DNA of 64,000 nucleotides, taken from Mycolicibacterium goodii. GTDB taxonomy: Bacteria; Actinomycetota; Actinomycetes; Mycobacteriales; Mycobacteriaceae. Within the stretch, counting starts at the first letter, position 1; each line of letters opens with the position of its first letter. Below the pieces are notes generated by a model. The model was given only the letters and a program-made list of their open reading frames with translations. It was not told where the DNA came from and did no database searches. The stretch lies in NCBI RefSeq assembly GCF_001187505.1, contig NZ_CP012150.1, positions 4,092,001 to 4,156,000 of the forward strand, given 5' to 3'. Positions 18,804 to 61,638 of this stretch are shown here, piece by piece. The position numbers and the translations under genes are program-made.

Positions 18804-18835
18804 GTTCGATATTGCGATAACAGTTCCGTGATTAG
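18804..18835 (-). promoter_or_regulatory. Candidate tandem operator upstream of esterase
   Basis: On the minus strand, CGCAATATCGAAC (18816-18804) fits the repeated 13-bp element found at other promoters of this island, and a weaker partner CTAATCACGGAAC (18835-18823) lies 19 bases upstream. The proximal copy is 13 bases before the esterase ATG. Confidence 0.45.
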
Positions 18836-18950
18836 AGACACTGACCATAGCCAGGCGCTGAGTTTCCTGTCAATTTGTGATCGGCACCCCAATATCTCGT
18901 TGGAGTGACTGTTGACACATCCTTGGGCCCCATTTAGTCTCCTAAAGGTC

Positions 18951-18983
18951 GCAATCGCGATCATTCATACGTAAATACGAACA
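18951..18983 (+). promoter_or_regulatory. Tandem 13-bp operator-like pair upstream of ABC operon
   Basis: CGCAATCGCGATC (18951-18963) and CGTAAATACGAAC (18971-18983) are same-strand copies of one element with exactly 20 bases between starts. The proximal copy ends 10 bases before the binding-protein ATG. The same pair geometry recurs at five other intergenic places. Confidence 0.6.
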
Positions 18984-18993
18984 GGAGCGTCAG

Positions 18994-20661
18994 ATGGCGA
19001 GGCTCGGAAGGAAGCGTTCGGCGTTCTTCACCATCGCGTCGATGACGTGTCTGATGGTCGCCACGGCGTGCGCCGGATCCGCGACGGATTCAGGTCCGGC
19101 GGGGGAGACCGTCAGATTCGCGGTCTCCGATTTTGAGAATGACGCGCTTGATCCCGCGATGGAAACCAACAGCGGGATGCGCGTCGCCAAGTACCTGATG
19201 TGGGACTCACTGCTCGAAATCGGGCTTAACAGCGAGATCGCCCCTGGCGTCGCTGAGTCGTGGGAGCTGTCTCCGGACGGGCGCACGTGGACCTTCAACA
19301 TCCGCCACGGGATCACCTTTCACAACGGTGAGGAGTTGGCCGCCGACGACGTCAAGTTCAGCCTCGACCGGATGATGGCTCCCGAGGCCGCGACGGGTGA
19401 TTCCACCCTGGCGCGTGAGCAGATCGACAACGTGGCGGTGGTCGACGCTGACACCGTCGCCATCCACACCAAAGGCGTTCAATCCGGGTTGCCATACCTA
19501 CTTTCGCCGCACCAATCGGTGATCGGAATCGTGATGCCGAAGGATTACCTACTCAACGAAGGCGGGCCGACCTTCGAGCAGCAGCGGGAGCTGATGGAAC
19601 GGGCGCCAATCGGCAGTGGCCCGTTCAGATTCGTCAGTCGCAGGGCAGGAGACGCGGTGTCGTTCGAATCCCTCGATCATCACTGGCGCCACACGCCGGC
19701 GATCAAGAGGGTGGAGATTCTGCGGGTCAGCGAAGAAGCCACCCAGGTGTCCATGCTGCAATCCGGTGAAGTCGACGTCATCACCGTCTCACCCGACCAG
19801 GCAGCGCCGTTGAAGGCTGCGGGGATGGAAATCCGAACGGTTGAGAACTCCGGCGAGATCGGGATGTTCTTCCCGGGCTCGTGGCGAGAAGCTTCGCGTA
19901 CGGAGCCGGCCGGCAACCCCGACGTGCGCCGGGCGCTGTCGTTGGCGATCAATCGGCAGGAGATCATCGATTCGGTGCTCGCCGGCTACGCCGACCTCAA
20001 GACCACGCCGTTCAACACCTCGCCGGCGACCGAGAGCATCGACGAAGGATATTTCCGGGACTGGGCAGCGCAAGCCAACGCCTACGATCCAGAACAGGCA
20101 CGCGAACTTTTGACAAATGCCGGATATCCCAACGGGTTTGAACTCCAGTTGTTCTCCTATGCACGCCCCGGTGTCCCGGGCCTGAGCCAGATCGCTGAAA
20201 TCGTCGCGGCGCAGTGGGCTCAGGTCGGTGTGACGGCCAATATCGTGCCGACGGACTACAACTCATACCGGCCGCATTTCGTCAACATCGATCCGGGCGA
20301 CACGTTCAATGCCGGCGACGCCAACATCCACGGTGCGGCAACCCGCTTCGACGTCATCGGCGCCTTCGCGGCCTATGTACGTGAAGAAGGCGGTGCCGTG
20401 CAGAGCGTGAAGGACCCCGAACTTGAAGCTCTGGTCGACCGTGCCGCTGCCACCCTCGATGAGGGGGAACGGCGGAACCTCGTCCAACAGGCCTACCAGC
20501 GATTCCTGGACACCTGGACCGTGCTCGAAATAGCCAGTACTGACGCAGTATTCGCGGTCAACCCCGAAACCGTCGGGCCCTGGTCGACAATCCGGGCCTA
20601 TCCGTTCCTCGGGCGCACTTTCGAAACGATCCAGGTGCCGGGAGCTCCGGGGTCCTCCTAG
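18994..20661 (+). CDS. ABC transporter substrate-binding lipoprotein, peptide/nickel family (SBP_bac_5)
   Basis: A 555-residue extracytoplasmic binding protein. A signal peptide ends in a lipobox-like VATAC (cysteine near residue 26). Family landmarks are GVAESWELSPDGRTWTFNIRHGITFHNGE near residues 85-115 (quoted motif GVAESWELSPDG) and the long C-terminal lobe with the YAxPG-like FSYARPGVPG. It would deliver an oligopeptide, opine or similar small solute to the permeases encoded downstream. First gene of an operon running to 26105, with an operator-like tandem repeat just upstream. Confidence 0.93.
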   Translation: MARLGRKRSAFFTIASMTCLMVATACAGSATDSGPAGETVRFAVSDFENDALDPAMETNSGMRVAKYLMWDSLLEIGLNSEIAPGVAESWELSPDGRTWTFNIRHGITFHNGEELAADDVKFSLDRMMAPEAATGDSTLAREQIDNVAVVDADTVAIHTKGVQSGLPYLLSPHQSVIGIVMPKDYLLNEGGPTFEQQRELMERAPIGSGPFRFVSRRAGDAVSFESLDHHWRHTPAIKRVEILRVSEEATQVSMLQSGEVDVITVSPDQAAPLKAAGMEIRTVENSGEIGMFFPGSWREASRTEPAGNPDVRRALSLAINRQEIIDSVLAGYADLKTTPFNTSPATESIDEGYFRDWAAQANAYDPEQARELLTNAGYPNGFELQLFSYARPGVPGLSQIAEIVAAQWAQVGVTANIVPTDYNSYRPHFVNIDPGDTFNAGDANIHGAATRFDVIGAFAAYVREEGGAVQSVKDPELEALVDRAAATLDEGERRNLVQQAYQRFLDTWTVLEIASTDAVFAVNPETVGPWSTIRAYPFLGRTFETIQVPGAPGSS

Positions 20662-20700
20662 CTCCAATTCCAACGGTAGAAACCAGATTCGGGAAGTGGA

Positions 20701-22113
20701 ATGCTGAAAGAACATCAAGTCGCCGCAGATACCCTGATCGACAGCGCCGCGTACAAGCTCGCCCAGTACGCCACCGCTTCGCGATTCGAAACCCTGCCGG
20801 ACGAAGTGAGTGATCGTGCCAAGCTCATCGTATTCGACCAGCTGGCTTGTAGTTTCGTGGGTGCCGAGCTGCCGGCTGGACGTATCATCAGCCGGTACGT
20901 TCACAATTACGGTGGTAAGCCGGAGTCGGTGGTGCTGCATTCCGGTGATCGGTGCCCGGCCCCACTGGCCGCCCTTGCCAATGGCACCGCAGGGCACGCC
21001 GACGAATTCGACAGTGTGCACGCGACCTCCGACTTTCTCGGTACCGGCCACCCGGCGGCGATCATCGTGCCTGCCGCGGCTGCGATCGCAGAACGCCAGT
21101 TCGCCACCGGGCGAGATCTGATCAACGCGGTCGCGCTGGGTTACGACGTCGGATCGCGGACCATCTCGGTGACCGGAGGGTTGGCGCCGATGATGGGTAA
21201 CCACGGCATTGATCCCGGCTCGCTGCACTCGCTGGGCGCGGCTTTCGCGTGCGCCAGGCTGCTGGGCCTCGACGAGCATCGCCACCTGTTCGCCGCGGCA
21301 CTGGCGGCGCAGCAGAGTGTCGCGCTCAACGCGCCCTACGGCGAGCGCAGGCACATGAGCAAGGCGTTCGTCACCGGGCAGTCCGCATTCGCCGGAGTCA
21401 CCGGTGCGGTGATGGCTGCGGCCGGCTTCGAGGCCAGCGACAACATCTTCGAGGCCCGCGGCGGCATCATCGACACGTGGGGCCAGAACGGTCGCGAAGA
21501 ACACCTGAACAAGGACCTCGGCGTCGACTATGCCGTGATGGGCGCGAACTTCAAGTTCTACTCCGCCGGCTACCCGATCCACTCGCCCGTCGAAGCGGTG
21601 TTGGGGATGAAGAGTGAGTACGGGCTGAACCCGGAAGGCATCAAACGGATCACTGTCCGGATGCAGTCTCATCCGGCCAGCGTGGTCAACAACCGATCCA
21701 TGCCGACCATCTGTCTGCAGCACATGGTGGCGGTCGCTCTGGTGGCAGGAAAATTGGGCTTCGACGAAGCACATTCCAGTGTGCTGCAGAACGATCCCGT
21801 TGTCCTGCAGTTGAAATCGCGCATCGATCTGATCAGCGATCCAGAACTAGATCGGGAACAGCCACAGGGTCGCAGCGCGCATGTGACCATCGAGACCGAC
21901 GGACAGACGGTGTCGCGCAAAATCGAGCACCCGCGAGGACATCGGTTCAGGACTCCTGCACCGACCTGGGATGACATTCGCGAGAAGTATGAAGAACTGT
22001 TGGTACGTCGCATCGGTCAACAGCGCTTCGACCAGTTCTACAACGGTTGCGTGGGATTGGAATCGGTTGAGGACATCAACGAGGTCACCGTCCTGCTCGC
22101 GGAGTCGTCATGA
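20701..22113 (+). CDS. MmgE/PrpD family protein (copy 1)
   Basis: A 470-residue member of the family that includes 2-methylcitrate dehydratase PrpD, cis-aconitate decarboxylase and iminodisuccinate epimerase. Landmarks: LIVFDQLACSFVGA near residue 45, GTAGHADEFDSVHA near residue 100 (the histidine/aspartate region of the active site), and KFYSAGYPIHSPVEAV where classical PrpD has a KxYPxxxxxH pattern. It lies between the binding-protein gene and the ATPase gene of one ABC operon and overlaps the next start (ATGA), so it most likely acts on the imported compound. The reaction is not predictable. Confidence 0.88.
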   Translation: MLKEHQVAADTLIDSAAYKLAQYATASRFETLPDEVSDRAKLIVFDQLACSFVGAELPAGRIISRYVHNYGGKPESVVLHSGDRCPAPLAALANGTAGHADEFDSVHATSDFLGTGHPAAIIVPAAAAIAERQFATGRDLINAVALGYDVGSRTISVTGGLAPMMGNHGIDPGSLHSLGAAFACARLLGLDEHRHLFAAALAAQQSVALNAPYGERRHMSKAFVTGQSAFAGVTGAVMAAAGFEASDNIFEARGGIIDTWGQNGREEHLNKDLGVDYAVMGANFKFYSAGYPIHSPVEAVLGMKSEYGLNPEGIKRITVRMQSHPASVVNNRSMPTICLQHMVAVALVAGKLGFDEAHSSVLQNDPVVLQLKSRIDLISDPELDREQPQGRSAHVTIETDGQTVSRKIEHPRGHRFRTPAPTWDDIREKYEELLVRRIGQQRFDQFYNGCVGLESVEDINEVTVLLAESS

Positions 22114-23219
22114 CAGCGGTGCCATCGGCGGTGTCCACCGAGAGTGGCACCGCGTCCGAGCCACCCGCCTTGCTGTCAGTGCGGAATCTGCGCAAACACT
22201 TTATGTTACGGGGCGGTTGGCCGTGGTCGAAGTCGCGGGGCGTAGTGAAGGCGGTCGACGGGGTTTCGTTCGACCTCGGGCAGCAGCAGACATTGGCGAT
22301 CGTGGGCGAATCAGGATGCGGGAAGTCGACAACCGCCCGTCTGATACTGCAACTGGGCGAGCCGACCGGTGGTGACGTGCTGTTCAAGGGCGACGGTATC
22401 TGGCAGCTGGACCGCACGGAGCAGCGCGCCTATCGGCGGTCGGTCCAGGCGGTGTTCCAGGATCCGTCGAGTGCTCTGAGCCCGAGACGCCGCGTGAAGA
22501 AGATCGTGACCGAGCCGTTGATGACGATCGAAGGGCTGCGGGGTAGCGACGCGCAGGCACGAATCGGCGATCTGCTCGCGCCGGTGGGGCTCACCCTGGA
22601 TGTAGCAGACCGGTTTCCGCACCAACTCAGCGGCGGGATGAAACAACGGGTCGCGATCGCCCAGGCCCTCGCCACCCGCCCGTCGGTGATTGTGCTCGAC
22701 GAACCCGTGTCGGCGTTGGATGTCTCGACAAGCGCCGAGATCCTCAACCTACTGAAGCGAATTCAGGGTGAATTCGGCGTTTCGTATGTACTGATCACAC
22801 ACAACCTGGCCACGGTCCGCTATCTCGCGCATCAGGTGGCGGCGATGTATCTCGGCACGATCGTGGAAAAAGGCAGCAACAGCGAGATCTTCCGCAATGC
22901 AACTCATCCGTACACGCTGGCGCTGATGTCTGCGTCCATCCCGCGTGAGGAGGCTTCAGCCGGCCGGGACCGGATCATTCTGGAGGGCGACATCCCGTCA
23001 CCGGTCAATCCTCCGAAAGGATGTCGCTTCCACACGCGATGCTGGTTGGCGCAGTCGTTGGGTAATCCGAAGCGGTGTCGAACCGAAGAGCCTCAGCTGC
23101 AGCAAATTTTAGGTACACATCGGGCAGCCTGTCACTTTCCGGCCGAAGCCGTCGCGTCACCGCAACGAAAAGCCTTGATCGACAGCTTGACGGGACCGTC
23201 GGCGCAAGGAGGTGAGTAG
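22110..23219 (+). CDS. Oligopeptide-type ABC transporter ATP-binding protein (OppF/DppF-like)
   Basis: A 369-residue cytoplasmic ATPase. Walker A GESGCGKSTT, signature LSGGMKQR, Walker B VIVLDEPVSALD and H-loop ITHNLA are complete. The C-terminus carries the oligopeptide-transporter cysteine motif GCRFHTRCWLA, typical of Opp/Dpp ATPases with an Fe-S or zinc site. Start overlaps the PrpD stop. Partner of the second ATPase at 25071. Confidence 0.95.
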   Translation: MTAVPSAVSTESGTASEPPALLSVRNLRKHFMLRGGWPWSKSRGVVKAVDGVSFDLGQQQTLAIVGESGCGKSTTARLILQLGEPTGGDVLFKGDGIWQLDRTEQRAYRRSVQAVFQDPSSALSPRRRVKKIVTEPLMTIEGLRGSDAQARIGDLLAPVGLTLDVADRFPHQLSGGMKQRVAIAQALATRPSVIVLDEPVSALDVSTSAEILNLLKRIQGEFGVSYVLITHNLATVRYLAHQVAAMYLGTIVEKGSNSEIFRNATHPYTLALMSASIPREEASAGRDRIILEGDIPSPVNPPKGCRFHTRCWLAQSLGNPKRCRTEEPQLQQILGTHRAACHFPAEAVASPQRKALIDSLTGPSAQGGE

Positions 23220-24140
23220 GTGGGTACGTTCATCGCCAGACGGGTGGGCCAGGGCGCGCTCACCATCGCGATACTGGCGGTTCTCGTCTTTTTGTTGTCG
23301 CGGGTCACCGGTGACCCCCTCAACACCCTCGTCCCCATCGAAGCGACACCGGCCCAACGGGAGAACATCGCGCGGCAACTCGGTCTGGACAAACCCCTCT
23401 ACCAGCAATTTTTCGTCTACATCGGGAGCCTGCTGACCGGCGACTTCGGCGTGTCGTTCACTCACCGGGTACCAGTCTCGGACCTCTTCGCGGAGCGGAT
23501 CTTCAACAGCCTTGCACTCGTCGTGCCCGCGTTCGTCATCGTCGTCATCCTTGGCCCAGTCCTGGGCGTTATCGGTGCGACGTCGCGGTTCACCATCGTC
23601 CGTAAGGCCGTGTTGATCTTCGCGACGCTCGGTATCGCGCTTCCGGTGTTCTGGATCGGCCTGGTTTTCGTTCGCATCTTCGCCGTACAGCTGGGCTGGT
23701 TGCCTGCCTCCCGAATGGGCGACTGGACTCACTACGTCCTGCCTGTTGCGTCGCTGTCGCTGATGATGATCGCCGGCATGATGCGGCTGGTGCGCTCCAG
23801 CATGCTGGATTCCCTTGGCCGCGACTACATCAAGCTGGCCCGCATCACCGGCGTGTCCGAACGCTCCATCCGGTGGAAACATGCACTGCGCAACTCGCTG
23901 TCGTCGGCGGTCGCTTTTCTCGGCGTCTACATGTCGCTACTGGTGGCAGGTACCACCGTCGTCGAGAAGGTGTTCGCATGGCCGGGTGTCGGTCTGCTCC
24001 TCTACGACGGGGTGGTTGCCCGTAACTATCCGCTGGTGCAGGGAATCATTCTCATCTCGGCGGTCATGGTCGTGGCGCTCAACGCGGTGTTCGACGTGTT
24101 GCAGGCATACCTCGATCCGAAGATCCGGCTGGGAGCGTGA
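23220..24140 (+). CDS. Oligopeptide-type ABC transporter permease (DppB-like)
   Basis: A 306-residue inner-membrane permease with about six helices. N-terminal pattern FIARRVGQGALTIAILAVLVFLLSR and GDPLNT are typical of DppB/OppB; the EAA loop is seen in DYIKLARITGVSERSIRWKHALRN. It starts with GTG, preceded by a strong AAGGAGGTGAG site directly abutting the previous stop. Overlaps the next permease gene at its stop. Confidence 0.94.
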   Translation: MGTFIARRVGQGALTIAILAVLVFLLSRVTGDPLNTLVPIEATPAQRENIARQLGLDKPLYQQFFVYIGSLLTGDFGVSFTHRVPVSDLFAERIFNSLALVVPAFVIVVILGPVLGVIGATSRFTIVRKAVLIFATLGIALPVFWIGLVFVRIFAVQLGWLPASRMGDWTHYVLPVASLSLMMIAGMMRLVRSSMLDSLGRDYIKLARITGVSERSIRWKHALRNSLSSAVAFLGVYMSLLVAGTTVVEKVFAWPGVGLLLYDGVVARNYPLVQGIILISAVMVVALNAVFDVLQAYLDPKIRLGA

Positions 24141-25036: not shown

Positions 25037-25070
25037 AGCGACGCGCTCAAACCCGGAAGGTTACTTTGCT

Positions 25071-26105: not shown

Positions 26106-26154
26106 ACTGCATGGTGACTGAACCCGCACGAGGCGCGCAGCGACTCCTGTTCGA

Positions 26155-28308: not shown

Positions 28309-28726
28309 TCGCCGGCGGAGTCGGCGTCTTGTTCCGAATCGATGCGCACTGAACTCCTCCCGCCGGGGGCGCAGCAGGACCACTTGGTAGAGGCGTAGAC
28401 GCGGTTGTCGGCACACGTCGTGCGGCCTGCGAGATGTTACGAGATCACCGACTACCTCAGTGGTCGCATAAAGGCCCATTGGTGGTATCGGTGTTTACCC
28501 GCCCGAGCCGGTTGACGACAGCCGGGCGTTCGGGCGTCCGTCGACGCAAAGTTCGGCCAGCACTTGATCATCGCGCCCGAGGTTGAGGCGCTGAGCGGTC
28601 AGTGGCCGGGCGTGTCCGGACCTGATGGTGCAAGGCTCGTGGCGCCCTGCACGGCTTGCTGCAGTCCAGCGGCGGAAGGCCCGCCAGCTGATAGCGGGTT
28701 GACTGCACCGCCGCCGGCGCATAGAT
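28309..28726. other. Intergenic region with diverged repeat copy B
   Basis: About 420 bases with no supported gene. The segment near 28510-28563 is the second copy of the diverged repeat seen at 26155-26215. Its minus-strand reading (LAELCVDGRPNARLSSTG) could be the fossil of a coding segment, but no family is recognisable. Confidence 0.4.
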
Positions 28727-28759
28727 TGTAATAACGAACGGAGACTCATATATACGAAC
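28727..28759 (+). promoter_or_regulatory. Tandem 13-bp operator-like pair upstream of PrpD copy 2
   Basis: TGTAATAACGAAC (28727-28739) and CATATATACGAAC (28747-28759) are same-strand copies exactly 20 bases apart. The second is centred on a near-palindromic TCATATATACGA core. They stand in the AT-rich stretch directly before the MmgE/PrpD coding region. Confidence 0.6.
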
Positions 28760-33156: not shown

Positions 33157-33169
33157 GTTCGTATATACG
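33157..33169 (-). promoter_or_regulatory. Operator-like element upstream of MHS copy 1
   Basis: Read on the minus strand this is CGTATATACGAAC, the best single match to the 13-bp element of the island, containing the perfect palindrome CGTATATACG at 33160-33169. A weaker partner may exist about 20 bases upstream on the same strand. It lies 36 bases before the MHS copy 1 start. Confidence 0.55.
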
Positions 33170-33314
33170 TGTGAACAATCGCATATTGAGACGCTGTGGT
33201 GATGGAATCTATCGTCCACGGCTGACGGAGGCAAGCTTCTGCCGGGGTGCGCCAGCCCCTTGACGTAGAGCGCTTCAATTGACAGGCAAACGTGATTCAG
33301 GATACATTCATGTT

Positions 33315-33347
33315 CTGTAACACGAACAAGTGTGCGGATATACGATC
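33315..33347 (+). promoter_or_regulatory. Tandem 13-bp operator-like pair upstream of MHS copy 2
   Basis: CTGTAACACGAAC (33315-33327) and CGGATATACGATC (33335-33347) are same-strand elements exactly 20 bases apart, ending 21 bases before the MHS copy 2 ATG. Both MHS promoters in this divergent interval therefore carry the element in the direction of their own gene. Confidence 0.55.
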
Positions 33348-38029: not shown

Positions 38030-39215
38030 GCTGCTCCAGGTCACGTCATCCACGTTCATCGTTGCCGTTGATGTCGGCAAGACCTCGGCACTGTTGTCGA
38101 TGACTGATTCGGGTCGTCATCGGTTGTTCGGTCCGTCGGATTCGCGTTGAATCGTACAGGGTTGACCGCCGTCGCGGCTGCGGCGATGTCCTTGGTTCCG
38201 CCGTCTGGCAGGTCAAGGTCGGTGTGGAGGCGGCCGGCCACTATCACTGTCCAGTGCTTGACCATCGCTGGCCACCCGGGTGGGAAGTGTTGGAACTCAA
38301 TCCTGCCCCCGTCGCCAAGCAACGCCGGGTGCAGGGTAGCGGACGGCTCCAGACCGATGTAATCGATCGGGAAGCAATCACCGAACTTGTGCTGGCCGGG
38401 TATGGCAGCCCGGTGACCGATCGAGATGAGGTGATCGGCGAGATGAGCGCCTGGGCCGGTCATCGGAGCCGGCGGGTGGCCACGCGTACTGCGACGAAGA
38501 ATCAGCTCCTCGGGCAGCTGGACCGAGCGTTTCCCGGTCTACTCCTGGCTCTGCCGGATGTGCTGAGAACCAAGATCGGCCGGCTGGTAGCCACTGAGTT
38601 TTCTGATCCGTCACGTCTGGCCGGACTCGGCGTCAACCGGCTGATCCGATTGGCCGCAGCCCGCGACCTGCGCCTGAGCCGCCCGGTCGCCGAACGTGTG
38701 GTGGCCGCGGCACGCGGTGCATTGCCCACCCGCGATGCGGTGATCGCGCGCCGGATATTGGCCGCCGATCTGGCGTTGTTTAATGATCTGGATCACCAGA
38801 TCCAAACGGCTGAGGCGGCGTTGACTGCTCTGCTGGCGCGTAGCCCGTATGCCACTTTGACCTCGGTGCCAGGCTGGGCGTGATGCGAGTGTCTAATTAC
38901 GCTGCGGCTCTGGGTGATCCACAACGGTGGCCGGAGGCCCCGGCAAATCTATCGTGCGTCGGGCGGTCGCCGATGCAGTACGAATCGGCTCACAAGCGCC
39001 GCGACGGCGGCATCAGCCGGGAAGGCAGCGTGGCCGCGCCCTGATCGACCTCGGTATCGGCCTGTGGCTCAACGAACCGGCAGCCAAGAACTACGCACAC
39101 GAACTCAAGGCCCGCGGAAAGCATGGCGGCGTCGTGGCCTGTGCGTTGGCCAATCACGCCAACCGCATTGCTCACGCCTTGGTACACGACCACGCCACCT
39201 ACGAGCCGACGCGAC
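38030..39215 (+). pseudogene. IS110-family transposase relic
   Basis: Fragments of a DEDD/serine-type IS110 transposase lie in the correct order but in different frames: the first catalytic strand FIVAVDVGKTSALLS near 38055; after a stop near 38147, VEAAGHYHCPVLDH and the TDVIDREAITELVLAG segment in the frame ending at 38883; then RVSNYAAALGDPQRWPEAP, GPRQIYRASG and finally LIDLGIGLWLNEPAAKNYAH to HDHATYEP. At least four frame changes or stops mean no functional enzyme. It marks a past insertion between the thiolase operon and the porin gene. Confidence 0.85.
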
Positions 39216-40308: not shown

Positions 40309-41703
40309 TCAGGTCAAGATGTGCACGAGCTCCTCGACGTCGGGAAGTGATTCGAGGTCACTTATCGCGGCACTCAGCCGACCAGCGATGTCGGCGGGTG
40401 ATGCCGCCGCGGCATACGTAGCGCAATCCGAAGCCTTTGTGGCGAATTCCTGCTGCGTCATCATGTTTTTCGGGTGTCCTTTCGGATAGTCCACCCGGTT
40501 CTGCAAGCTCTCGCCGTCACGGAAGCGGACCGTTACCTTGGCCGGTGTCACGAAGCGGCTCCACTCGCGGTCGATTTCGCCGTCCACGTACGGCTTCACA
40601 CGCGCCGCCAACTCGAGTACGTCGGGACGTTGCAGGTTTTTGGAGGTGAAGTGTCCGATACTCGGTGGCCCGTCGATCCAAGCCGCCGCCACGGTGTAGG
40701 GAATGCTGAACTGCGCCTCGACAACGGTGCGCGGCGCCATTCGAACGTGCTCGGGAACGCAGACCATTTGGTAACCCGGCCCGGTGACACCGACCTCGAT
40801 TGCCTCGATGTCCTCGGCCGGTCGACCGGTCCCGGCGCGTGCTAGGAGAGCCGCGTCTATCGCGGCATGGGTGTCGCGGCAGCACGGATATGGTTTGTAA
40901 CTGAGGTTCAGCAGTTCGAATTGCGTGCCGAGGCCTTTGCGGACGGCGGCGGCGTCAACTCGATTTTGAAGATAGACCCGGAAGAAGCCGTCCGCCCCCT
41001 CGAAAACCTCTTGGGCACCGCGGATGCCGCGCTTGGCCAGTTGCACGGCAACGACTGCCGCCTGGGCGGCCAACGCCGGTTGTAGCCGCTTCATCAGGGA
41101 CGCGTCCCGGGTGACTTGGTGGTTGCCCGCGACCGAGCTGTAAACGATGCCGAACGCGTTGACCATCTCGTCCGGTGTCAGACCGATTGCCCTACCGGCT
41201 GCCGCCGTCGCGCCGAAGTACCCGAGCAGGGAACTGTAGATGAAGCCGCTTTCGACGATGTCGACCTGAACGGCGACGCCCAGTCGGCAGGTGATCTCCA
41301 GGCCGGCGGCAACAGCAGCGATCAAGTCTGCGCCCGTGCACTTTTCGGCCAGCTGCCCGGCGGCGATAGCCGCCGGAACGGTAGAGACACCCGCGTGCAG
41401 GATCGCCGCATCATGCGTGTCGTCATAGTCGCGTGCATGAGCCATCGCAGCATTCACCCACGCCGCGTGATGTGCAGGATACTTCCCCCCGAACACCCAC
41501 ATATCGGCCTGCGGCGTTCCCGCCCACTCGCGGACAAGGGCCGACACGTCCGCTATCGCCTCGGCGGAGGATCCTGCGAGCGCGCAGGCCAAGGTGTCCA
41601 GGATGTTGGTCTTGATGGCTGCGACGACGTCGTGGTCGAGGCTGGCGAGCTCGGTCGTCGATGCAAACTGCGCTACGTCGAGTACGAGATCTCGATGGGT
41701 CAC
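40309..41703 (-). CDS. MmgE/PrpD family protein (copy 3)
   Basis: A 464-residue MmgE/PrpD protein. Landmarks: TNILDTLACALAGSSAE near residue 30, MAHARDYDDTHDAAILHAG near residue 85 (active-site Asp/His region), and LSYKPYPCCRDTHAAIDAAL, the KPYPxCxxxH segment in its canonical form. The GTG start at 41703 follows GAAGGGG; the frame is open upstream but without family pattern. It is divergent from the Fe3+/polyamine-type ABC operon. Of the three copies it is closest to the canonical KPYPCC motif. Confidence 0.88.
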   Translation of the reverse strand: MTHRDLVLDVAQFASTTELASLDHDVVAAIKTNILDTLACALAGSSAEAIADVSALVREWAGTPQADMWVFGGKYPAHHAAWVNAAMAHARDYDDTHDAAILHAGVSTVPAAIAAGQLAEKCTGADLIAAVAAGLEITCRLGVAVQVDIVESGFIYSSLLGYFGATAAAGRAIGLTPDEMVNAFGIVYSSVAGNHQVTRDASLMKRLQPALAAQAAVVAVQLAKRGIRGAQEVFEGADGFFRVYLQNRVDAAAVRKGLGTQFELLNLSYKPYPCCRDTHAAIDAALLARAGTGRPAEDIEAIEVGVTGPGYQMVCVPEHVRMAPRTVVEAQFSIPYTVAAAWIDGPPSIGHFTSKNLQRPDVLELAARVKPYVDGEIDREWSRFVTPAKVTVRFRDGESLQNRVDYPKGHPKNMMTQQEFATKASDCATYAAAASPADIAGRLSAAISDLESLPDVEELVHILT

Positions 41704-41739
41704 AAGTACCCCTTCCGGTGAATGGACCAGCGCGGTGAA

Positions 41740-41772
41740 CGCAATTACGAACTCATAGACGTAATCTAGAAC
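41740..41772 (+). promoter_or_regulatory. Tandem 13-bp operator-like pair between PrpD copy 3 and ABC operon
   Basis: CGCAATTACGAAC (41740-41752) and CGTAATCTAGAAC (41760-41772) are same-strand copies exactly 20 bases apart. The pair is 36 bases from the PrpD copy 3 start on the other strand and 219 bases before the ABC ATPase start. Within it ATTACG and CGTAAT also form an inverted repeat. Confidence 0.6.
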
Positions 41773-41990
41773 ACGGGTTAGAGTAGGTGTGAGCCGGGCC
41801 ACTGTCAATGGGGTAGCGCGCGGGGCGTCCCGCCTTGCGCGAGGCGTGATTGCGGGTCTGGATGCGACGTGGATTCGCTCAAAAACAGTCAAATTCAACA
41901 AATTTCACTGAGACGGTTTACTCGCGACCAAACTATGTGCATAGTTAGCATAGTTCGTGTCCGTGGTGACTCGGATCACAAGGGAGCCCC

Positions 41991-51639: not shown

Positions 51640-51643
51640 CGTT

Positions 51644-52135
51644 ATGGGTGAACCGTTCGATCTTCCTGATTCGTTTATGTTCACGGTCCGCAGCCGCGGC
51701 CGGACCATCACCGAGGCCGACTTCGCCATGATGACCAATCTGACGTGGACGACTTCCGAGATCCACACCAACAAGGCGTTGATGGCGGACTCGCCCACCG
51801 GGGAGCGGCTCCTAGCCGGCGCCTGCGTCCTGGCGTTCGCACTCGGGTTGTCGACCCCGGCGATCAAGCCCGAACTCGAGTCGCGCGGAATAAGTCTCCT
51901 CGCCCTGCTGGGCTACGACGAGGTGCGATTCCAGGCGCCGTTGCGCCCCGGCGACACGATATTCGTCGAGTCGCGGATGGCTTCTTTACTTCGCACGAGC
52001 CGGCCGCCCCGCGCGGTGGTGAATTGTACGGACACCCTGGTCGACAGCGACGGCAGGACATTGTGCACGTATGCCCGCAGCGCGCTGTGCGATGCCAGCG
52101 CGGCGGGTGTCTACGGGGTGGGCAACCATGCCTAA
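51644..52135 (+). CDS. MaoC-like hot-dog protein (third copy in operon)
   Basis: A 163-residue MaoC/R-hydratase-like hot-dog protein. TITEADFAMMTNLTWTTSEIHTNKALMADSP corresponds to the hydratase motif region (quoted ITEADFAMMTNLTWTTSEIH), and the last half has GYDEVRFQAPLRPGDTIFVES. It starts four bases after the dehydrogenase stop. Likely hydrates the enoyl-CoA made by that enzyme. Confidence 0.88.
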   Translation: MGEPFDLPDSFMFTVRSRGRTITEADFAMMTNLTWTTSEIHTNKALMADSPTGERLLAGACVLAFALGLSTPAIKPELESRGISLLALLGYDEVRFQAPLRPGDTIFVESRMASLLRTSRPPRAVVNCTDTLVDSDGRTLCTYARSALCDASAAGVYGVGNHA

Positions 52136-52196
52136 TGTATGTATGTTTGCGGACCCGGGTCGGGTCGGTAACAGACAACTGGGGAAAGGACCGCCG

Positions 52197-53081
52197 ATGG
52201 CTACCTCTGGACACTCGGGCGCGCCGCGCAAGGCGAACCCCACAGCACGACGGTCGCGTAAGTCGGCCCCGGTCGAGCTGCCCCCCATGGAGCGGCCCCG
52301 GCAGGTGCCGACGAAGTCGTCGTTCCTGCTTGCCGAGACCATCCTGCGGGACATCGTGCGTGACCGGCTGAAGCCGGGGGACCCGCTGCCCGCCGAACGC
52401 ATCATGGTGGAGAAGTACGGCATGGGCCGAACCACCGTGCGGGAAGCCTTGCGGTTGCTCGAGTATCAAGGCGCCATCCAGATCAAGCAGGGCCTCAACG
52501 GGGGCCCCATCGTTCAGACGCCGAACTCCTCGCACTTTGCGAGCACCATCCTGTTCTTGATGCAGATGCAGCGCACACCGTTCCGGTCGATCGTCGAAGT
52601 GCGTTCCGCCATCGAACCGATGATCTGTCAGCTCGCGGCGGAGCGGATCTCCCGGGAGGCGCTCGATGAGTTGCAGCGAACCATCGTCGAGATGCACCGA
52701 ATCGTCGACGAGCACGAAGCCACCCCTGAGTTCAACGAGCTGAATACCCGTTTCCACAACGTCATCGCGTGGTCCTCGGGCAATCCGCTGTTCCAGTACC
52801 TTGCCGATTCGTTGCTGGACATCATGGACGGCGCCGTCGTGGGAGTGAGCTACTCCGAGCGCAGCGAGCGTGGGGTCATCGTCGCGCACGAGTCGATCCT
52901 GGCGGCACTGCGCGAGCGCGACGGGACCGCTGCGTCGGAGGCGATGCAGCAGCACCTCGACGATTGGGAGGCCTACGCACGCCGCCGTTACCCCGACGCT
53001 TTGGACCAAGTCATTCCGTGGACCTGGGGCGGTGGCTATCGTGCCGTGATCCCGCCCGCGCACACTGCATTAGGAAAGTAG
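52197..53081 (+). CDS. GntR family transcriptional regulator (FadR/FCD type)
   Basis: A 294-residue regulator. Winged helix: LRDIVRDRLKPGDPLPAERIMVEKYGMGRTTVREALRLLE (recognition part MGRTTVREALRLLE), preceded by a basic 40-residue extension. The C-terminal FCD ligand domain contains VRSAIEPMICQLAAER and LNTRFHNVIAWSSGN with the metal-binding Asp/His pattern partly kept. GAAAGGA precedes ATG 52197. Near the end of the CoA-ester operon, so it probably senses a CoA ester or acid of the pathway. It is one candidate for the island-wide 13-bp element, although GntR sites are usually palindromic. Confidence 0.93.
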   Translation: MATSGHSGAPRKANPTARRSRKSAPVELPPMERPRQVPTKSSFLLAETILRDIVRDRLKPGDPLPAERIMVEKYGMGRTTVREALRLLEYQGAIQIKQGLNGGPIVQTPNSSHFASTILFLMQMQRTPFRSIVEVRSAIEPMICQLAAERISREALDELQRTIVEMHRIVDEHEATPEFNELNTRFHNVIAWSSGNPLFQYLADSLLDIMDGAVVGVSYSERSERGVIVAHESILAALRERDGTAASEAMQQHLDDWEAYARRRYPDALDQVIPWTWGGGYRAVIPPAHTALGK

Positions 53082-53085
53082 CCCC

Positions 53086-53946: not shown

Positions 53947-54037
53947 ATCGGCAGAGCGATTCGCGTTGACAGCGTGCGCGTCCACGTAAGTTCGCTGTTA
54001 CGCACTATTGATTGCAGTACCGAACAAGGTTTTGTCG

Positions 54038-54960
54038 GTGACCGAAGAGTTGAATCTGCCGCACGTGACACCCCCGTTCCGCACGTTGCGCGGCGAGCAC
54101 GCTCTCGACGCGTTGCCGCGCGAGCTGGCGCGGCTTGGTGTCCAACGGGCCGTGGTGATCTCTGTGGCGCCACTCCTCGACCATCCGGACGGATGGGCCG
54201 GCTGTATACCGCATTGGGCGGGCGCCTGGTCGGACAGTTCCACGGGGTCGCCGAGCATAGCCCGATACCCGCGATGGAGGAGGCGCGACAGTTCCTGGCT
54301 GAGCGTGAAGCGGATGCTGTCATCGCGGTCGGCGGCGGGTCATCGGTGGTGACTGCGCGCGCCGCGAACATCCTGCATGCCGAACAGTGCGACATCCGTG
54401 AACTGTGCACGCAGCGCACAGCCGAGGGGAAGCTCGTCAGCCCGAAGCTGACCAAACCGAAGCTGCCCATCTGGGTGGTGCCAACCACTCCGATTACTGC
54501 CTACGCCAAGGCCGGTGCGGCCGTTCGTGATCCGTCGACTGGAGAGCGACTCGCCCTCTACGACCCCAAAGTGCGGGCGCAGGGCGTTATGCTTGACCCG
54601 GTCATGGCGCTCACCGCTCCAGCGAAGCTCGCCTGGTCGGCTGCCCTCAATGTCTTCTCGATGGCAGTGGAGGGCCTGCAGTCCCGCGGCGTCGATCCGC
54701 TGGCAGACGCACTGCTATGCCACGCCCTCCGCACGGTCATCGAGTGGCTGCCACGTCTGCAGGAGGATCCGGACGAATCTCAACCGCGCCTCAATCTGAT
54801 GCTCGCGGCCCTGATGAGCGGTCAAGGCTCTGACTACACCGGAGGTGGCCTGGCGCAGGCGCTTTCGCATGCCGTTGGACCGCGGTCGTCGGCACCCAAC
54901 GGAGTTGTCGAGGCGCTACTGCTGCCCTATGCGATGCACTTGAACGCAACGAACGGATGA
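54038..54960 (+). pseudogene. Iron-type alcohol dehydrogenase/maleylacetate reductase-like, frameshifted and truncated
   Basis: The first frame gives MTEELNLPHVTPPFRTLRGE and a Rossmann-like region to about 54190; after a frame change near 54192 the second frame gives MGRLYTALGGRLVGQFHGVA, the GGGSSVVTARAAN cofactor motif and AQALSHAVGPRSSAPNG with a metal-site histidine. The second frame stops at 54960, short of the usual C-terminal helices by perhaps 80-100 residues. Probably non-functional. GTG start 54038 is uncertain. Confidence 0.8.
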
Positions 54961-54992
54961 ACCCTCGAGTGAAGGTGCGGATCGAGTTCTCA

Positions 54993-56347: not shown

Positions 56348-56351
56348 GACT

Positions 56352-57086: not shown

Positions 57087-57103
57087 GGTTCGATCTCCTT
57101 CTG

Positions 57104-57934
57104 CTAATCGGCGAAGTCGGTGGTGGCGCTGATATGTGCCCATTCGTCGATCTCGTCGATGCGGGTCTGGTATTCGTCGCGGACGATCTGGATGGCATCG
57201 GTACCGAGCAGCAGCCGGAACGGGGCTTGCTCCCCTTCGACCGTGGCGATGATGACCTGCGCTGCGCGGTCGGGGTCGCCCTGCTGGGTGCCGTGGGTGT
57301 GGTCGTTCTCCTTGCGGCGCTTCCCGGCGGTCTCGGCGTAGTCGTCGATCACGGTGCGGGACTCCATCAGTGAGCGGCCGGCGAAATCGGTGCGGAACGC
57401 GCCCGGTTCGATCACCATCACTCGGATACCCAGTGGCGCCACCTCGCGGTTCAACGCGTCGGACATGCCTTCAAGAGCGGCCTTGGTGGCGGTGTAGTAG
57501 CCGGAGGCGGGGTTCGATCGGGGCGCGCCGATCGAGGAGACGTTCACGATGGTGCCCGACCGGCGTGCGCGCATCTGCGGGAGTACCTGCTTGATCAGGT
57601 CGACAGGCCCGAAGAAGTTCGTGGCGAACAGCTCGTCCACCTCGTCCACAGCTGCTTCCTCCACCGCGGCCCGATACCCGTGGCCGGCGTTGTTGACCAA
57701 CACGTCGATACTTCCGAACCGCTCGGTGGCGGCGTCGACCGCGGCGACCACCTGGTCGTGGTCGGTGACGTCCAGCGCCACTGCCAGCGCACTGTTCGGG
57801 TGTGCGTCGACGATGCTCTTCACGTGGTCGGCGTTGCGGGCGGTGATCACAGCACTGTCTCCGTGGTCGAGGACAGCGTGTGCCAGTGCGGCTCCGAGAC
57901 CGCTCGACGCTCCCGTGATCAACCAAGTGGTCAT
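57104..57934 (-). CDS. Short-chain dehydrogenase/reductase (classical)
   Basis: A 276-residue classical SDR: TGASSGLGAALAHAVL, NNAGHGY, Ser in NVSSIGAPRSNPASGYYTATKAALEG with the Tyr-x-x-x-Lys pair (YYTATK). A 25-residue hydrophilic C-terminal end extends the fold. First gene of the two-SDR operon. AAGGAGAAAG precedes the ATG at 57934. Substrate unknown. Confidence 0.92.
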   Translation of the reverse strand: MTTWLITGASSGLGAALAHAVLDHGDSAVITARNADHVKSIVDAHPNSALAVALDVTDHDQVVAAVDAATERFGSIDVLVNNAGHGYRAAVEEAAVDEVDELFATNFFGPVDLIKQVLPQMRARRSGTIVNVSSIGAPRSNPASGYYTATKAALEGMSDALNREVAPLGIRVMVIEPGAFRTDFAGRSLMESRTVIDDYAETAGKRRKENDHTHGTQQGDPDRAAQVIIATVEGEQAPFRLLLGTDAIQIVRDEYQTRIDEIDEWAHISATTDFAD

Positions 57935-58104
57935 GTGGGCTTTCTCCTTTGTACGCGTGACATGTTCGGCGTTCGCAGCGAGCTACCGGGAGTCCATCAA
58001 TTCCACCCCAGCGGGCGCGGGTGTGGGAGTCAGAGCTGATCCGGGTATTGGCAGTTCCCCCATGGCTTCGTTGCCCAGCAGGGAGCCCCCCCCGGCGGAT
58101 GGAA

Positions 58105-58824
58105 TCAGATGGCTGGTGAGTGGTCGCTGATACGGCTGCCGCCGGGATCGACCGGTTTGAGGTCGGCATCGAGGTCATACCGGAAAGGGATTCCTGTGGG
58201 GATGTTCAATCTGGCGATGTCGGAATCCGAGATCGCGTCGAGGTACTTGATCAGGGCACGCAACGAATTACTGTGGGCGACAACGAGTACAGTGCGTCCA
58301 CTGCACAGGTCGGGGACGATCGCCGAATACCAATACGGCAGGAGTCTGTCGAGCACATCGGCCAGTGATTCCGTTGAGGGTGGAGTGACACCGATGTCAC
58401 GATATCGCGCATCGTCGGCCTGGCTGAAGGGACTCGACAGGGCGATGGCGGGCGGGCGGACCTGATATGCCCTGCGCCACCGCATGAACTCGGCCTCGCC
58501 GAACGTGGCACGGATCTGTTCTTTGCTTTGCCCCTGCAACGCTCCGTAGTGGCGTTCGTTGAGCCGCCAGCTCGTCTGAATGTCGACGAAACCCGTGCCG
58601 GCTGCCCGAAGCGCGATCTCGGCTGTGGATATTGCACGGCTCAACATGGACGTATGGACGGTGTCGGGCCGCAGGCCGGCACAGGCGAGCGCGTCACCAC
58701 ACTGCATTGCCTGGGCGCGCCCGCGATCGGACAGTGGAATGTCGACCCACCCGGCGAAGCGGTCCTCTTTGTTCCAGATGCTCTCGCAGTGCCGCAGAAG
58801 CACCAACGTGCCGGTACCCGACAT
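58105..58824 (-). CDS. Phosphoglycerate mutase-like histidine phosphatase
   Basis: A 239-residue branch-1 histidine phosphatase resembling cofactor-dependent phosphoglycerate mutase: LLRHCESIWNKEDRFAGWVDIPLSDRGRAQA (quoted LLRHCESIWN), SRAISTAEI, LNERHYGALQG, VVAHSNSLRALIKYLD with the second histidine, LNIPTGIPFRYDLD. The RHG of the family is RHC here. As a second copy far from glycolytic genes it may serve another phosphoester. ATG 58824 is preferred over a GTG one codon upstream. Confidence 0.9.
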   Translation of the reverse strand: MSGTGTLVLLRHCESIWNKEDRFAGWVDIPLSDRGRAQAMQCGDALACAGLRPDTVHTSMLSRAISTAEIALRAAGTGFVDIQTSWRLNERHYGALQGQSKEQIRATFGEAEFMRWRRAYQVRPPAIALSSPFSQADDARYRDIGVTPPSTESLADVLDRLLPYWYSAIVPDLCSGRTVLVVAHSNSLRALIKYLDAISDSDIARLNIPTGIPFRYDLDADLKPVDPGGSRISDHSPAI

Positions 58825-58870
58825 CACGGGCCTCTCAATCTTCGTTGGTTCGAAGGTTTTACAAACCTGC

Positions 58871-59650
58871 TCAGGGTTGACTGCGCCGGCACACCTCCAG
58901 CAGGAGCTCCGTCACGGCGGGCGCTGCCGTCACCATGGCATCGTGTGTGGCCCCGAGAAGCCGGTACTCGAACTGCTGTGGTGCGGCCACGCTGCGTTGT
59001 CGTGCGCGGTCCAGGACATGCTGTTCGAGCGATGAGGAAGTGCATTGGATGAATGTGGTGGCGTGGTTCCAGGCGCGTTCGGTGGAGCCCACTTCGTCCT
59101 GGTAGGTCTTGAGTGGTTGCGCGGTTAATCGTCGGTTCATCCAGGCGGTGTCGTCGGGGTCGCCGACACCGTAGTAGGACGCGTCCGCCGGAGGGATGTA
59201 CCACCCTTCGCCGTCTCGGGCTGCGATGGCCGTCATCCCGGCGCTGCGGACGGGACCGATCATGTCGAGCACTGATTCGCCGGTGCGTGGAAGAAGACCG
59301 TCAAGGTAGACCAAATGACGGACACGCGGCCAGATTTCGGCCATTGCCCCGCTGGCGACCATCCCACCGTAGCTGTGCGCGACCAATATGGCGTCGGTGA
59401 TGTCCTCGTATTCGAAGACGCTCACCAAATCTCGGATGTGCGTATCCAACCCCACGTCGGGGCCTAACAGATGGGCACGTTCACCCGAGCCCGTCAGGGT
59501 TGGTGTGTAAACCTCGTGCCCGGCGGCTCGAAGACGCTGCGCTACTCGCCGCCAGCACCAGCCACCATGGCGTCCACCGTGCAGGAGCACGAAAGGCGGC
59601 AGGGACCGTGCCTCGGCGACCGACTTACTCGCGTCGTGCAGCTCGTTCAT
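58871..59650 (-). CDS. Alpha/beta hydrolase (methylesterase/hydroxynitrile-lyase-like)
   Basis: A 259-residue alpha/beta hydrolase with the oxyanion region FVLLHGGRHGGWCWRRVA, nucleophile elbow VAHSYGGMVASG and a C-terminal GATHDAMVTAAPAVTEL with the catalytic His. The THTxxxGxERxH-like GSGERAHLLGPDVGL is typical of the esterase group that includes plant methyl-salicylate esterase relatives. Its ATG overlaps the transporter stop (ATGA). Possibly cleaves an ester imported by that transporter. Confidence 0.9.
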   Translation of the reverse strand: MNELHDASKSVAEARSLPPFVLLHGGRHGGWCWRRVAQRLRAAGHEVYTPTLTGSGERAHLLGPDVGLDTHIRDLVSVFEYEDITDAILVAHSYGGMVASGAMAEIWPRVRHLVYLDGLLPRTGESVLDMIGPVRSAGMTAIAARDGEGWYIPPADASYYGVGDPDDTAWMNRRLTAQPLKTYQDEVGSTERAWNHATTFIQCTSSSLEQHVLDRARQRSVAAPQQFEYRLLGATHDAMVTAAPAVTELLLEVCRRSQP

Positions 59651-61023
59651 GACTGTTCGGCGTCGTCGGTCGCAACTGCCCGGTCGAGATCGTAGTGACG
59701 TGTCTCTCCGAGAACCGCCATGCAGATCAGGCTGATGATGCAGACGACCGCAAGGATCGCGCCCAGGGCCATACTCCCGACTGCCCCGACAATCCACGCG
59801 CCGACGATCGGCAGTAGGCCGCCACCGATCATTCCCGCGACGCTGTAGCTGAAACCGGCTGCGGTGTAACGGTACCGGGTGTGGAACAGTTCGGATAGGA
59901 AGGCTCCCTGCGGTCCGGTGCCGATCCCGGCGAGCAACGCAGTCACAGGAAGTCCGACCGCAAACGCGGCGTGTGAGCGCATGTCGAGGATCGGGAACAG
60001 TGCCAACGTCCACAAGATGCCGATAGTTGCTGTACAGCCCAGAACGAAGCGGCGTCCGAAGCGGTCCGACATGATGGCGCCGATGACACAGCCCAGGGTG
60101 ACCGCCAGGCCACCGACCATCGCCATGCCCAGCACATAGGTGCGTGACAACCCGAGTTCCTTGGTGCCGTAGTTCACCAGATATGTGCCGCCGACATAAA
60201 CGAGGGCCATGATCATCGTCAAGATGCCGATGGCCAGTGCGATCTCGCGTGACTGGTGTTTGAATGCCTCTACGAACGGAATCCGGGATGTGCCACCACG
60301 TTTGACTTCCTTTGTGAACACCGGTGATTCACCAGTTGTGAGACGGATCCACAGTCCCACGATGACCAGCAGGAAACTAGCGAGGAATGGTACTCGCCAC
60401 GCCCAGTTCACAAAATCTTCGTCGCTGACCAGTATTGCGGTGAGGAAGAAGGTAGCGTTGGACAAGACGATGGCGCCGCCACCACCCAGATTTGCGAAGG
60501 AGCCCCAGAAGCCGCGTTGTGCTTTGGGCGCGTGTTCGGAAGAAAACAGCACGGCACCGGCGTACTCACCGCCGGCGGCAAGGCCTTGCAGAATCCGCAA
60601 GGCCACCAACAGTATCGGCGCGATGACGCCGATCTGTGCCGCGGTTGGCATGAGGCCGACGAGGATGGTCGCGATTCCCATCAACAGCATCGTCGCGACC
60701 AGGGTCTTCTTGCGGCCGTACCGATCCCCGAAATGTCCGAACAACAGGCTGCCGAAGGGGCGCGCCGCGAAGGCGACACCGAAGGTCGCGAATGACGCAA
60801 CCGTACCTGCGGCGGGGCCGAGGGCAGGGAAGAAGACGTGGGGAAATACGAGGGCTGCCGCAGTCCCGTAGATACCGAAGTCGTAGAACTCGATCACGGT
60901 TCCGATGAAGCTCGCAGTGGCAACGCGTTTGATGCCATGCTGGGATTCTGGGTTCGCGGTCGGTGCAGACTCAATTGAGGTGCGCTGAGTTTGCGTCAAG
61001 GGATTCCTCTTGGTGTCGAACAT
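59647..61023 (-). CDS. MHS family MFS transporter (metabolite:H+ symporter), copy 3
   Basis: A 458-residue MHS symporter: GTVIEFYDFGIYGTAAALVF in helix 1, RPFGSLLFGHFGDRYGRKK (motif A) and LRILQGLAAGGEYAGAVLFSSEHA in helix 4, which is the canonical MHS pattern. It differs from copies 1 and 2 (EFYDFGIYG against EWFDF). ATG 61023 is chosen; an in-frame ATG at 61068 gives a longer basic N-terminus. Operon with the hydrolase. Confidence 0.9.
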   Translation of the reverse strand: MFDTKRNPLTQTQRTSIESAPTANPESQHGIKRVATASFIGTVIEFYDFGIYGTAAALVFPHVFFPALGPAAGTVASFATFGVAFAARPFGSLLFGHFGDRYGRKKTLVATMLLMGIATILVGLMPTAAQIGVIAPILLVALRILQGLAAGGEYAGAVLFSSEHAPKAQRGFWGSFANLGGGGAIVLSNATFFLTAILVSDEDFVNWAWRVPFLASFLLVIVGLWIRLTTGESPVFTKEVKRGGTSRIPFVEAFKHQSREIALAIGILTMIMALVYVGGTYLVNYGTKELGLSRTYVLGMAMVGGLAVTLGCVIGAIMSDRFGRRFVLGCTATIGILWTLALFPILDMRSHAAFAVGLPVTALLAGIGTGPQGAFLSELFHTRYRYTAAGFSYSVAGMIGGGLLPIVGAWIVGAVGSMALGAILAVVCIISLICMAVLGETRHYDLDRAVATDDAEQS

Positions 61024-61211
61024 CGAAATGATACGGCGATGATGTTGTCGGCGAGGCGGCTTGGCCATGTGGCACCCCGCGCGATCAGCTGAGCAGGTGT
61101 CGTTCCAGGAGAACCGTTCCGGCGATTCGGAACACCTCGACGGAATGAGGTTTCTCGCCTGGCCTCACAAAGCCGACCGTCATGAACTAACCGTCCCTCC
61201 CTCAGTCGGTG

Positions 61212-61244
61212 CGTAATTAGGAACAGAAGATCGCATAAATGAAC
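61212..61244 (+). promoter_or_regulatory. Tandem 13-bp operator-like pair
   Basis: CGTAATTAGGAAC (61212-61224) and CGCATAAATGAAC (61232-61244) are same-strand copies exactly 20 bases apart, with no intact plus-strand gene directly after them but an MDR-type relic beginning near 61320. It may be the promoter of that dead gene or control the divergent MHS copy 3 operon. Confidence 0.55.
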
Positions 61245-61319
61245 GTTAGTGATGCCGGCTACATTTTGTCAACGACAGGCTATGAACCTCACGGCGATCC
61301 CAATGTTGCCGCCGTCGCG

Positions 61320-61570
61320 TCGCTCGGGCGCCTTGCCTGGGTAGAAGGTCAGTCGGACGCGGGATACGGGTCCCTGGTGAGGGTCAGGCGCGCCGCCGAC
61401 GCAGCGGGGCTTCGAACTTCTCATGAGCCAGGCTGGGCCGCGTCATGCTTAGGCTCCACGTCGCGGAGGTGTTCCCGGCAACGGCCCACGCTGAAGCGCG
61501 CCGGCTGCTCTGTTCGGGCGGACGGCGGCGTCATGAGTCGCCTCGAAGTAGACGTCGTCCGCATGTGCAT
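61320..61570 (+). pseudogene. Quinone oxidoreductase-like MDR relic
   Basis: Only the C-terminal part is recognisable, in two frames: GRLAWVEG then SLVRVRRAADAAGLRT (compare HSVRVRHSATDTQGLERL in the intact protein at 36866), followed by LRLHVAEVFPATAHAEARRLL near 61447, matching LRVAQVFPATAAAQAHRLLE there. The N-terminal domain is missing. A relic of a gene duplicated or transferred with the island. Confidence 0.65.
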
Positions 61571-61605
61571 TGACCGCGCCGCGGGTAGTCGGTAGCGTTC
61601 GATAA

Positions 61606-61638
61606 CGCAATAAGGGACGTTGGTGCATATATACGTCC
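61606..61638 (+). promoter_or_regulatory. Tandem 13-bp operator-like pair upstream of alcohol dehydrogenase
   Basis: CGCAATAAGGGAC (61606-61618) and CATATATACGTCC (61626-61638) are same-strand elements exactly 20 bases apart. The second keeps the CATATATACG core seen at 28747. The next gene downstream starts at 61809. Confidence 0.5.

Follow-up and report, generated by a model that had tools for sequence, protein, structure and literature searches.

The elements described here lie in a 64,000-nt stretch of the Mycolicibacterium goodii chromosome (the window; bases 4092001 to 4156000 of a 7.1-Mb single-contig genome) and continue beyond its right end. They are 36-bp units of two 16-bp palindromes in tandem, with centers 20 bp apart, and sequence comparisons indicate that they very probably act as operators for a single regulator of the IclR family, whose gene lies in the island that also holds the elements, 6.3 kb to the right of the window. 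This assignment is carried by the tandem period of imperfect palindromes, the confinement of the elements to one ~80-kb island of catabolic and transport genes, their co-occurrence with one IclR subfamily across phyla, and their place before a gene for a MaoC-like protein.

The element is a pair of tandem palindromes

A preliminary description of the window had reported 13-bp direct repeats, paired on the same strand with a 20-bp period, at six sites. All six pairs were found, the first of them one base to the left of its reported place (18950/18970). Within the window, the 13-mer occurs 15 times at ≤2 mismatches (mean of 4.47 and maximum of 11 in 100 shuffles), and the six pairs are the six highest-scoring (+)-strand pairs (37.2 to 25.2 bits; next, 11.3 bits) under a matrix that was built from these same copies and is hence self-trained. 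Specifically, the number of pairs above 12 bits was six on the (+) strand and seven on the (−) strand at a spacing of 20, six and four, respectively, at a spacing of 12, and no more than three at the other spacings from 10 to 44. The minus-strand copies reported at 33157 and 18804, with weaker partners, are likewise present (23.8 and 15.9 bits with a symmetric matrix). The symmetric matrix was trained on 17 island elements (seven in the window and 10 to its right), and scores within the island are thus inflated; a 36-position sequence profile was trained on the same 17 elements together with elements of relatives chosen by score.

Each 13-mer is part of an imperfect 16-bp palindrome near GTTCGTATATACGAAC; as a consequence of this symmetry, the opposite strand gives hits for the pairs too, shifted by 3 bp. 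Fifty-four elements from this genome and its relatives, the latter picked by score, align without gaps to GTTCGTATATACGAAC-ANNN-GTTCGTATATACGAAC. The simple direct repeats of the preliminary description are ruled out by these palindromic consensus copies, as is a direct-repeat site of the AraC/XylS type, since the copies are palindromic rather than asymmetric half-sites; AraC/XylS-type sites have a period of ~21 bp. The two helical turns between copies do fit the earlier proposal that both copies are bound from one side of the DNA.

The elements are confined to one island and lie before genes

A matrix scan of 324 kb around the window placed the strong pairs between genome positions 4110804 and 4190663, with the series running on for ~35 kb past the right end of the window. 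Outside this stretch, the best pair scored 13.8 bits on the left (4035522) and 15.4 bits on the right (4195105; 11.3 bits with the symmetric matrix), and all remaining pairs scored ≤12.9 bits. Across the whole genome, the four exact matches to the 13-mer all fall inside the stretch, and the 24 matches at ≤1 mismatch comprise 13 inside and 11 elsewhere (seven for a reversed-pattern control). The profile search, corresponding to the genome-wide scan proposed in the preliminary description, returned 25 rows at E ≤ 10, i.e., 15 distinct elements, all within 4110948 to 4190663 (150 of 219 first-look candidates scored), and it missed two of the 17 island elements used in training (window position 61603 and genome position 4164776). 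That the profile matches are confined to the island supports the idea that the element is a putative operator marking a single block of genes for catabolism and transport. When the profile was run on 98 genus genomes (M. goodii included), it found a single further match, in genome G077, ~7 kb from the gene of a 37%-identical IclR.

Placement before genes was assessed from start codons that we picked as plausible, replacing the starts of the longest open reading frames; with these plausible starts the elements lie between genes, as had been claimed. For eight window elements, the centers are 25 to 54 bp (six) or 159 to 212 bp (two) upstream of the plausible start (Table 1). Among 18 elements (the 17 training elements and 18804), 13 centers are 25 to 98 bp before a plausible start, and five are more than 150 bp away.

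Table 1. Tandem elements in the window and to its right (window coordinates unless marked as genome)
Feature	Position	Strand	Score (bits)	Setting
Weak tandem element	18804..18839	−	15.9	Center 32 bp before ATG 18790 of carboxylesterase gene
Tandem element	18947..18982	+	32.2	Center 29 bp before ATG 18994 of SBP_bac_5 solute-binding protein gene, Opp-type ATP-binding cassette (ABC) operon
Tandem element	28724..28759	+	33.8	Center 25 bp before ATG 28767 of MmgE/PrpD gene; this ATG lacks a clear ribosome site, and later starts are possible
Tandem element, one palindrome weak	33157..33192	−	23.8	27 or 54 bp before start of minus-strand major facilitator superfamily (MFS) transporter gene
Tandem element	33312..33347	+	30.0	Center 39 bp before ATG 33369 of plus-strand MFS transporter gene
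Tandem element	41737..41772	−	27.1	Between minus-strand MmgE/PrpD gene (GTG 41703, 52 bp) and plus-strand ABC operon (ATG 41991, 236 bp)
Doubtful weak element	53990..54025	+	17.7	At start of truncated iron-type alcohol dehydrogenase (Fe-ADH) frame
Tandem element	61209..61244	−	32.8	Center 159 bp before ATG 61068 of MFS transporter gene
Tandem element	61603..61638	+	20.8	Center 188 to 212 bp before zinc ADH gene
Ten matrix elements right of window, part 1	genome 4157352, 4157509, 4159729, 4164776, 4165969
Ten matrix elements right of window, part 2	genome 4174963, 4175119, 4188906, 4189014, 4190628
Weaker elements right of window	genome 4163127, 4189034

The Fe-ADH frame at the doubtful element (window 53974 to 54960, plus strand) matches only part of both Pfam domains and is perhaps a decayed gene.

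An IclR gene in the island is the candidate regulator

The iclR gene occupies genome positions 4162268 to 4163029 on the minus strand. It follows an aldehyde dehydrogenase gene, and the element at 4164776 lies upstream. The IclR protein (~250 aa when started at the ATG that we selected; 254 aa as searched) matches both domains of the IclR family, PF09339 (34.3 bits; cutoff, 22) and PF01614 (31.5 bits; cutoff, 24). The preliminary description had named ArsR and GntR genes as the only candidates in the window, which agrees with the frames scanned there; its further view that the regulator would be of an unknown type did not hold, given the IclR gene past the window end. Reading frames in and around the island given to Pfam (some small frames left out) yielded as helix-turn-helix (HTH) regulators a GntR/FCD protein (window 52071 to 53081), an ArsR protein to the left of the island (window 10710 to 11048), and the one IclR. 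The whole genome holds 57 IclR-HTH matches, just one of which is in the island (150 of 445 candidates scored).

At E ≤ 1e−30, an IclR of this kind was found in seven of 248 genomes of the genus, including M. goodii itself, with the six others only 32 to 37% identical (≤10 candidates scored per genome). The promoter comparison in related mycobacteria that had been proposed was therefore uninformative within the genus, and we moved it to other genera because of this. In the order, three of 397 genomes matched, M. goodii included. In comparison, a protein search returned IclR relatives up to 93% identical, and among plasmids one record, from Paracoccus denitrificans, carries a relative (48%). The MmgE/PrpD protein encoded at window positions 40309 to 41901 is present in three of 98 genus genomes, two of them at 34 to 35% identity, and the GntR protein was found at E ≤ 1e−60 in M. 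goodii only among the same number of genomes. Since close relatives of the IclR, MmgE/PrpD, and GntR proteins are missing from the sampled genus while IclR relatives reach 93% in the protein search, the ~80-kb island was probably acquired horizontally. A partial IS110-type transposase frame lies inside the island (window 38224 to 38883, plus strand), a possible trace of mobility.

We regard it as very improbable that the FCD-type GntR protein, rather than the IclR, binds the pairs. Its gene does lie within both the island and the window, and operators of FCD-type GntR proteins are usually short palindromes, but no relative (≥40% identity, E ≤ 1e−30) was found in the 31 IclR orthologue loci described below, with flanks of up to 10 kb, beyond which a distant gene would escape. 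The protein is also missing from the other 97 sampled genus genomes at E ≤ 1e−60, which makes the genus sample neutral on this alternative.

The element accompanies IclR orthologues in other phyla

A scan of named genomes (best 80 of 126 kept) revealed IclR orthologues 48 to 78% identical to the island protein in Rhodococcus, Parafrankia, Arthrobacter, Amycolatopsis, Actinoplanes, Conexibacter, and Microbacterium as well as in beta-, gamma-, and alphaproteobacteria (31 orthologue loci, L067 to L097). Co-occurrence was analyzed with a matrix from the M. goodii genome only, on loci chosen by protein similarity only. Pairs above 20 bits turned up at 57 positions in the orthologue loci (480 kb), spread over 26 of the 31, and at no position in 48 loci of more distant IclRs with 25 to 45% identity (899 kb, same scan). 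Column-permuted matrices gave ≤3 hits in the orthologue loci in 199 of 200 cases and 49 hits in one case. In nine of the 31 loci, an element is centered ≤300 bp before iclR itself.

These results bear on whether the pairs are dispersed repeats, relics of mobile elements, or a chance pattern. That the pairs were chosen by eye and that the island holds the partial transposase would suit such an origin, but the flanks differ, by eye, from element to element, most elements lie directly before genes, the permuted matrices rarely reproduced the hits, and the element turns up next to orthologues of the regulator in other phyla but in none of the 48 control loci. Consequently, we assign this explanation a negligible probability.

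Alternatively, the sites could be used by a different IclR of M. goodii, or by more than one; the nearest paralogues are encoded at 4868171 and 6261702. The large number of IclR-HTH matches in the genome would favor this, as would related tandem elements in the paralogue loci, where variants with a 20-bp spacing occur at L168:17484 (~4875484; 18.7 bits) and L169:9589 (~6261589; 16.9 bits), a hint that multiple IclR regulons with tandem sites exist in parallel. Furthermore, pairs above 16 bits were present in eight of nine further loci (all except L164) with IclRs 33 to 41% identical to the island protein, two of them ~7 kb or more from the gene, and on these grounds the tandem design seems older than the island IclR subfamily. 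However, the profile has no match outside the island, which implies that the paralogues' own elements differ, and the island gene belongs to the very subfamily whose orthologues carry the element. Use of the sites by a paralogue is thus improbable, and the island IclR remains the preferred regulator. In another genus member, two consecutive IclR genes on a 3.4-kb contig (L031) have a tandem element between them (27.8 bits).

Target genes and the MaoC-like core

Within the window, the genes beside an element or in the same operon encode, among others, Opp-type and TOBE-type ABC transporters, MFS transporters, carboxylesterase, MmgE/PrpD, CaiB, and AtuA proteins. Beyond the window, they encode, among others, aldehyde dehydrogenases, CaiB, MFS and tripartite ATP-independent periplasmic (TRAP) transporters, and a 3-hydroxyisobutyrate dehydrogenase-like protein. 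The clearest common target is a MaoC-like protein (FAS1_DH_region, ~390 aa), which accounted for eight of the 20 element-side genes sent to Pfam. Its gene is present in 12 orthologue loci, with the Rhodococcus copy 70 to 80% identical to the 11 others and 78% identical to the M. goodii copy. In 11 of the 12 loci an element lies within ~250 bp upstream (within ~40 bp in 10), a count that is post hoc since the gene was selected after its showing among the 20; in the twelfth locus (L073), the element follows the Fe-ADH gene. In M. goodii, the MaoC-like gene (genome 4168477 to 4169640) stands in a run of CaiB, Fe-ADH, MaoC-like, coenzyme A (CoA) ligase, and enoyl-CoA hydratase genes behind the element at 4165969, and in loci L067 (Rhodococcus erythropolis) and L071 the element is followed by the MaoC-like, CoA ligase, enoyl-CoA hydratase, and iclR genes, in this order.

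No match shown for 10 proteins searched against NCBIfam reached its cutoff (best 25 of longer lists for three proteins). Solved structures gave distant matches to four of the proteins, namely, Fe-ADH, MmgE/PrpD, enoyl-CoA hydratase, and CoA ligase, the nearest for MmgE/PrpD being IDS-epimerase and cis-aconitate decarboxylase. Across the right end of the window (genome 4155942 to 4156475, minus strand; from window position 63942) lies a gene whose small product looks, by eye, like carboxymuconolactone decarboxylases; its counterparts in nine of the 31 orthologue loci are 54 to 85% identical, and it may be part of the core pathway. In addition, a plus-strand frame at L015:6337-7191 matches just the first 87 of 374 positions of an Na+/H+ antiporter family and is perhaps a broken gene.

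Findings that weigh against the assignment

Several findings count against the island IclR as the regulator acting at tandem palindromes. Single copies are imperfect, with four to 12 of the 16 positions equal to their own reverse complement, and many are poor palindromes. The element upstream of the island's own iclR is weak (13.4 bits at 4163127, ~116 bp before the ATG). Besides the 57 pairs at a spacing of 20, the orthologue loci hold 23 at a spacing of 8 and 26 at a spacing of 12 (other spacings from 8 to 69, ≤4), which we read as a likely overlap of half-sites. No pair above 20 bits was present in five of the 31 orthologue loci, namely, L068, L070, L072, and L081, which are 5.6 to 15.9 kb in size, and L097, which is 20.7 kb in size with a best pair of 18.5 bits.

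Conservation at individual promoters also counts against it. For element-bearing genes other than the MaoC-like gene, the element was kept in only nine of 40 gene-locus cases (relatives with ≥50% identity; by gene, 2/8, 3/10, 2/2, 2/3, 0/3, 0/10, 0/3, and 0/1, with one case at a contig edge), scarcely above the 12 of 72 cases in which relatives of genes that lack an element in M. goodii have one; five of these 12 are the same relatives' genes recounted via paralogues. The expectation that the element would be kept at orthologous promoters is thus borne out for the MaoC-like gene and fails for most of the others. Individual promoters are thus weakly conserved beyond the closest relatives, and conservation centers on the regulator with its element and on the MaoC-like core.

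Proposed mechanism and comparison with known systems

By analogy with the IclR family, one GTTCGTATATACGAAC-like 16-bp palindrome would bind one IclR dimer, and two palindromes with centers 20 bp apart would bring two dimers onto the same helix face, allowing binding as a tetramer. The bound protein would cover the promoter or leader, as suggested by the position of most centers 25 to 98 bp before the start codon, and would repress the genes for transporters and the CoA-thioester pathway until an acid of the pathway or its CoA ester releases it. Binding, the tetramer, repression over activation, and the inducer are each predicted from family knowledge. Three elements (L083:4424-4479, L075:10359-10414, and genome 4189014-4189069) resemble, judging from overlapping pair scores, a series of three palindromes stepped by 20 bp and are perhaps sites for more than one tetramer. 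Activation from the tandem site is a less likely but serious alternative: the family includes activators and dual regulators according to Suvorova and Gelfand 2021 (PMC8222616), and five of the 18 centers sit >150 bp upstream of the closest start that was assigned. Occlusion is, however, the simpler reading for the other 13, and repression remains the mode of action that we favor.

The same study covers 4,809 predicted sites for 1,340 IclR regulators and gives the group-1 consensus as GKTYCRYW3-4RYGRAMC, with tandem palindromes, centers 18 to 22 nt apart, in 94 orthologous groups and related to tetramers on one DNA face. The island palindrome fits KTYCRYW4RYGRAM inside this consensus, as found on the 54-element consensus GTTCGTATATACGAAC, from which single copies deviate, and the 20-bp distance between its centers falls within the published range. 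The tandem-palindrome architecture is therefore already described for IclR regulators in that source (PMC8222616), and the island represents another clean case. The published site positions, mostly −20 to −80 relative to starts, are a further point of agreement. According to that study, an IclR regulator generally acts on its own gene and on one or two neighboring operons, and over half of the regulogs hold ≤10 clusters of orthologous groups (COGs), whereas the promoters that the island IclR seems to serve number at least a dozen and are spread over ~80 kb.

Among characterized regulators, PcaR, PcaU, and PobR share with the island protein the IclR family and palindromes of the GTNCG-N5-6-CGNAC type, but the island IclR scores 30.5 bits on their NCBIfam model (cutoff, 284.75) and is not a member, and PcaU-type sites consist of three boxes versus the two full palindromes of the island element. 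Its best NCBIfam match is BhcR (45.8 bits), the regulator of the beta-hydroxyaspartate cycle, whose cutoff of 350 bits again excludes membership; no search was made for the enzymes of that cycle. A literal literature search for the 16-mer GTTCGTATATACGAAC and five consensus-like strings returned no paper, a weak negative since motifs are mostly printed as figures. Likewise, the literature search found no paper joining an IclR with MaoC, MmgE, and an iron-containing alcohol dehydrogenase, and no title or beginning of an abstract among those listed concerned the island IclR.

On a broader view, to which we give an even chance, the IclR and its tandem operator make up a portable regulatory module, one that has passed between actinobacteria and proteobacteria along with a CoA-thioester pathway not yet described (MaoC-like hydratase, CoA ligase, enoyl-CoA hydratase, Fe-ADH, CaiB, and MmgE/PrpD). 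In M. goodii, the operator would have come to precede a dozen or more operons for transporters and enzymes, so that a single IclR sensor of a central intermediate would run a self-contained island of ~80 kb. The element gives this catabolic island a likely regulator and a list of targets, connects it with a module that also occurs in Rhodococcus, Arthrobacter, Amycolatopsis, Cupriavidus, Sphingomonas, and others, and defines a core operon of MaoC-like hydratase, CoA ligase, enoyl-CoA hydratase, and iclR.

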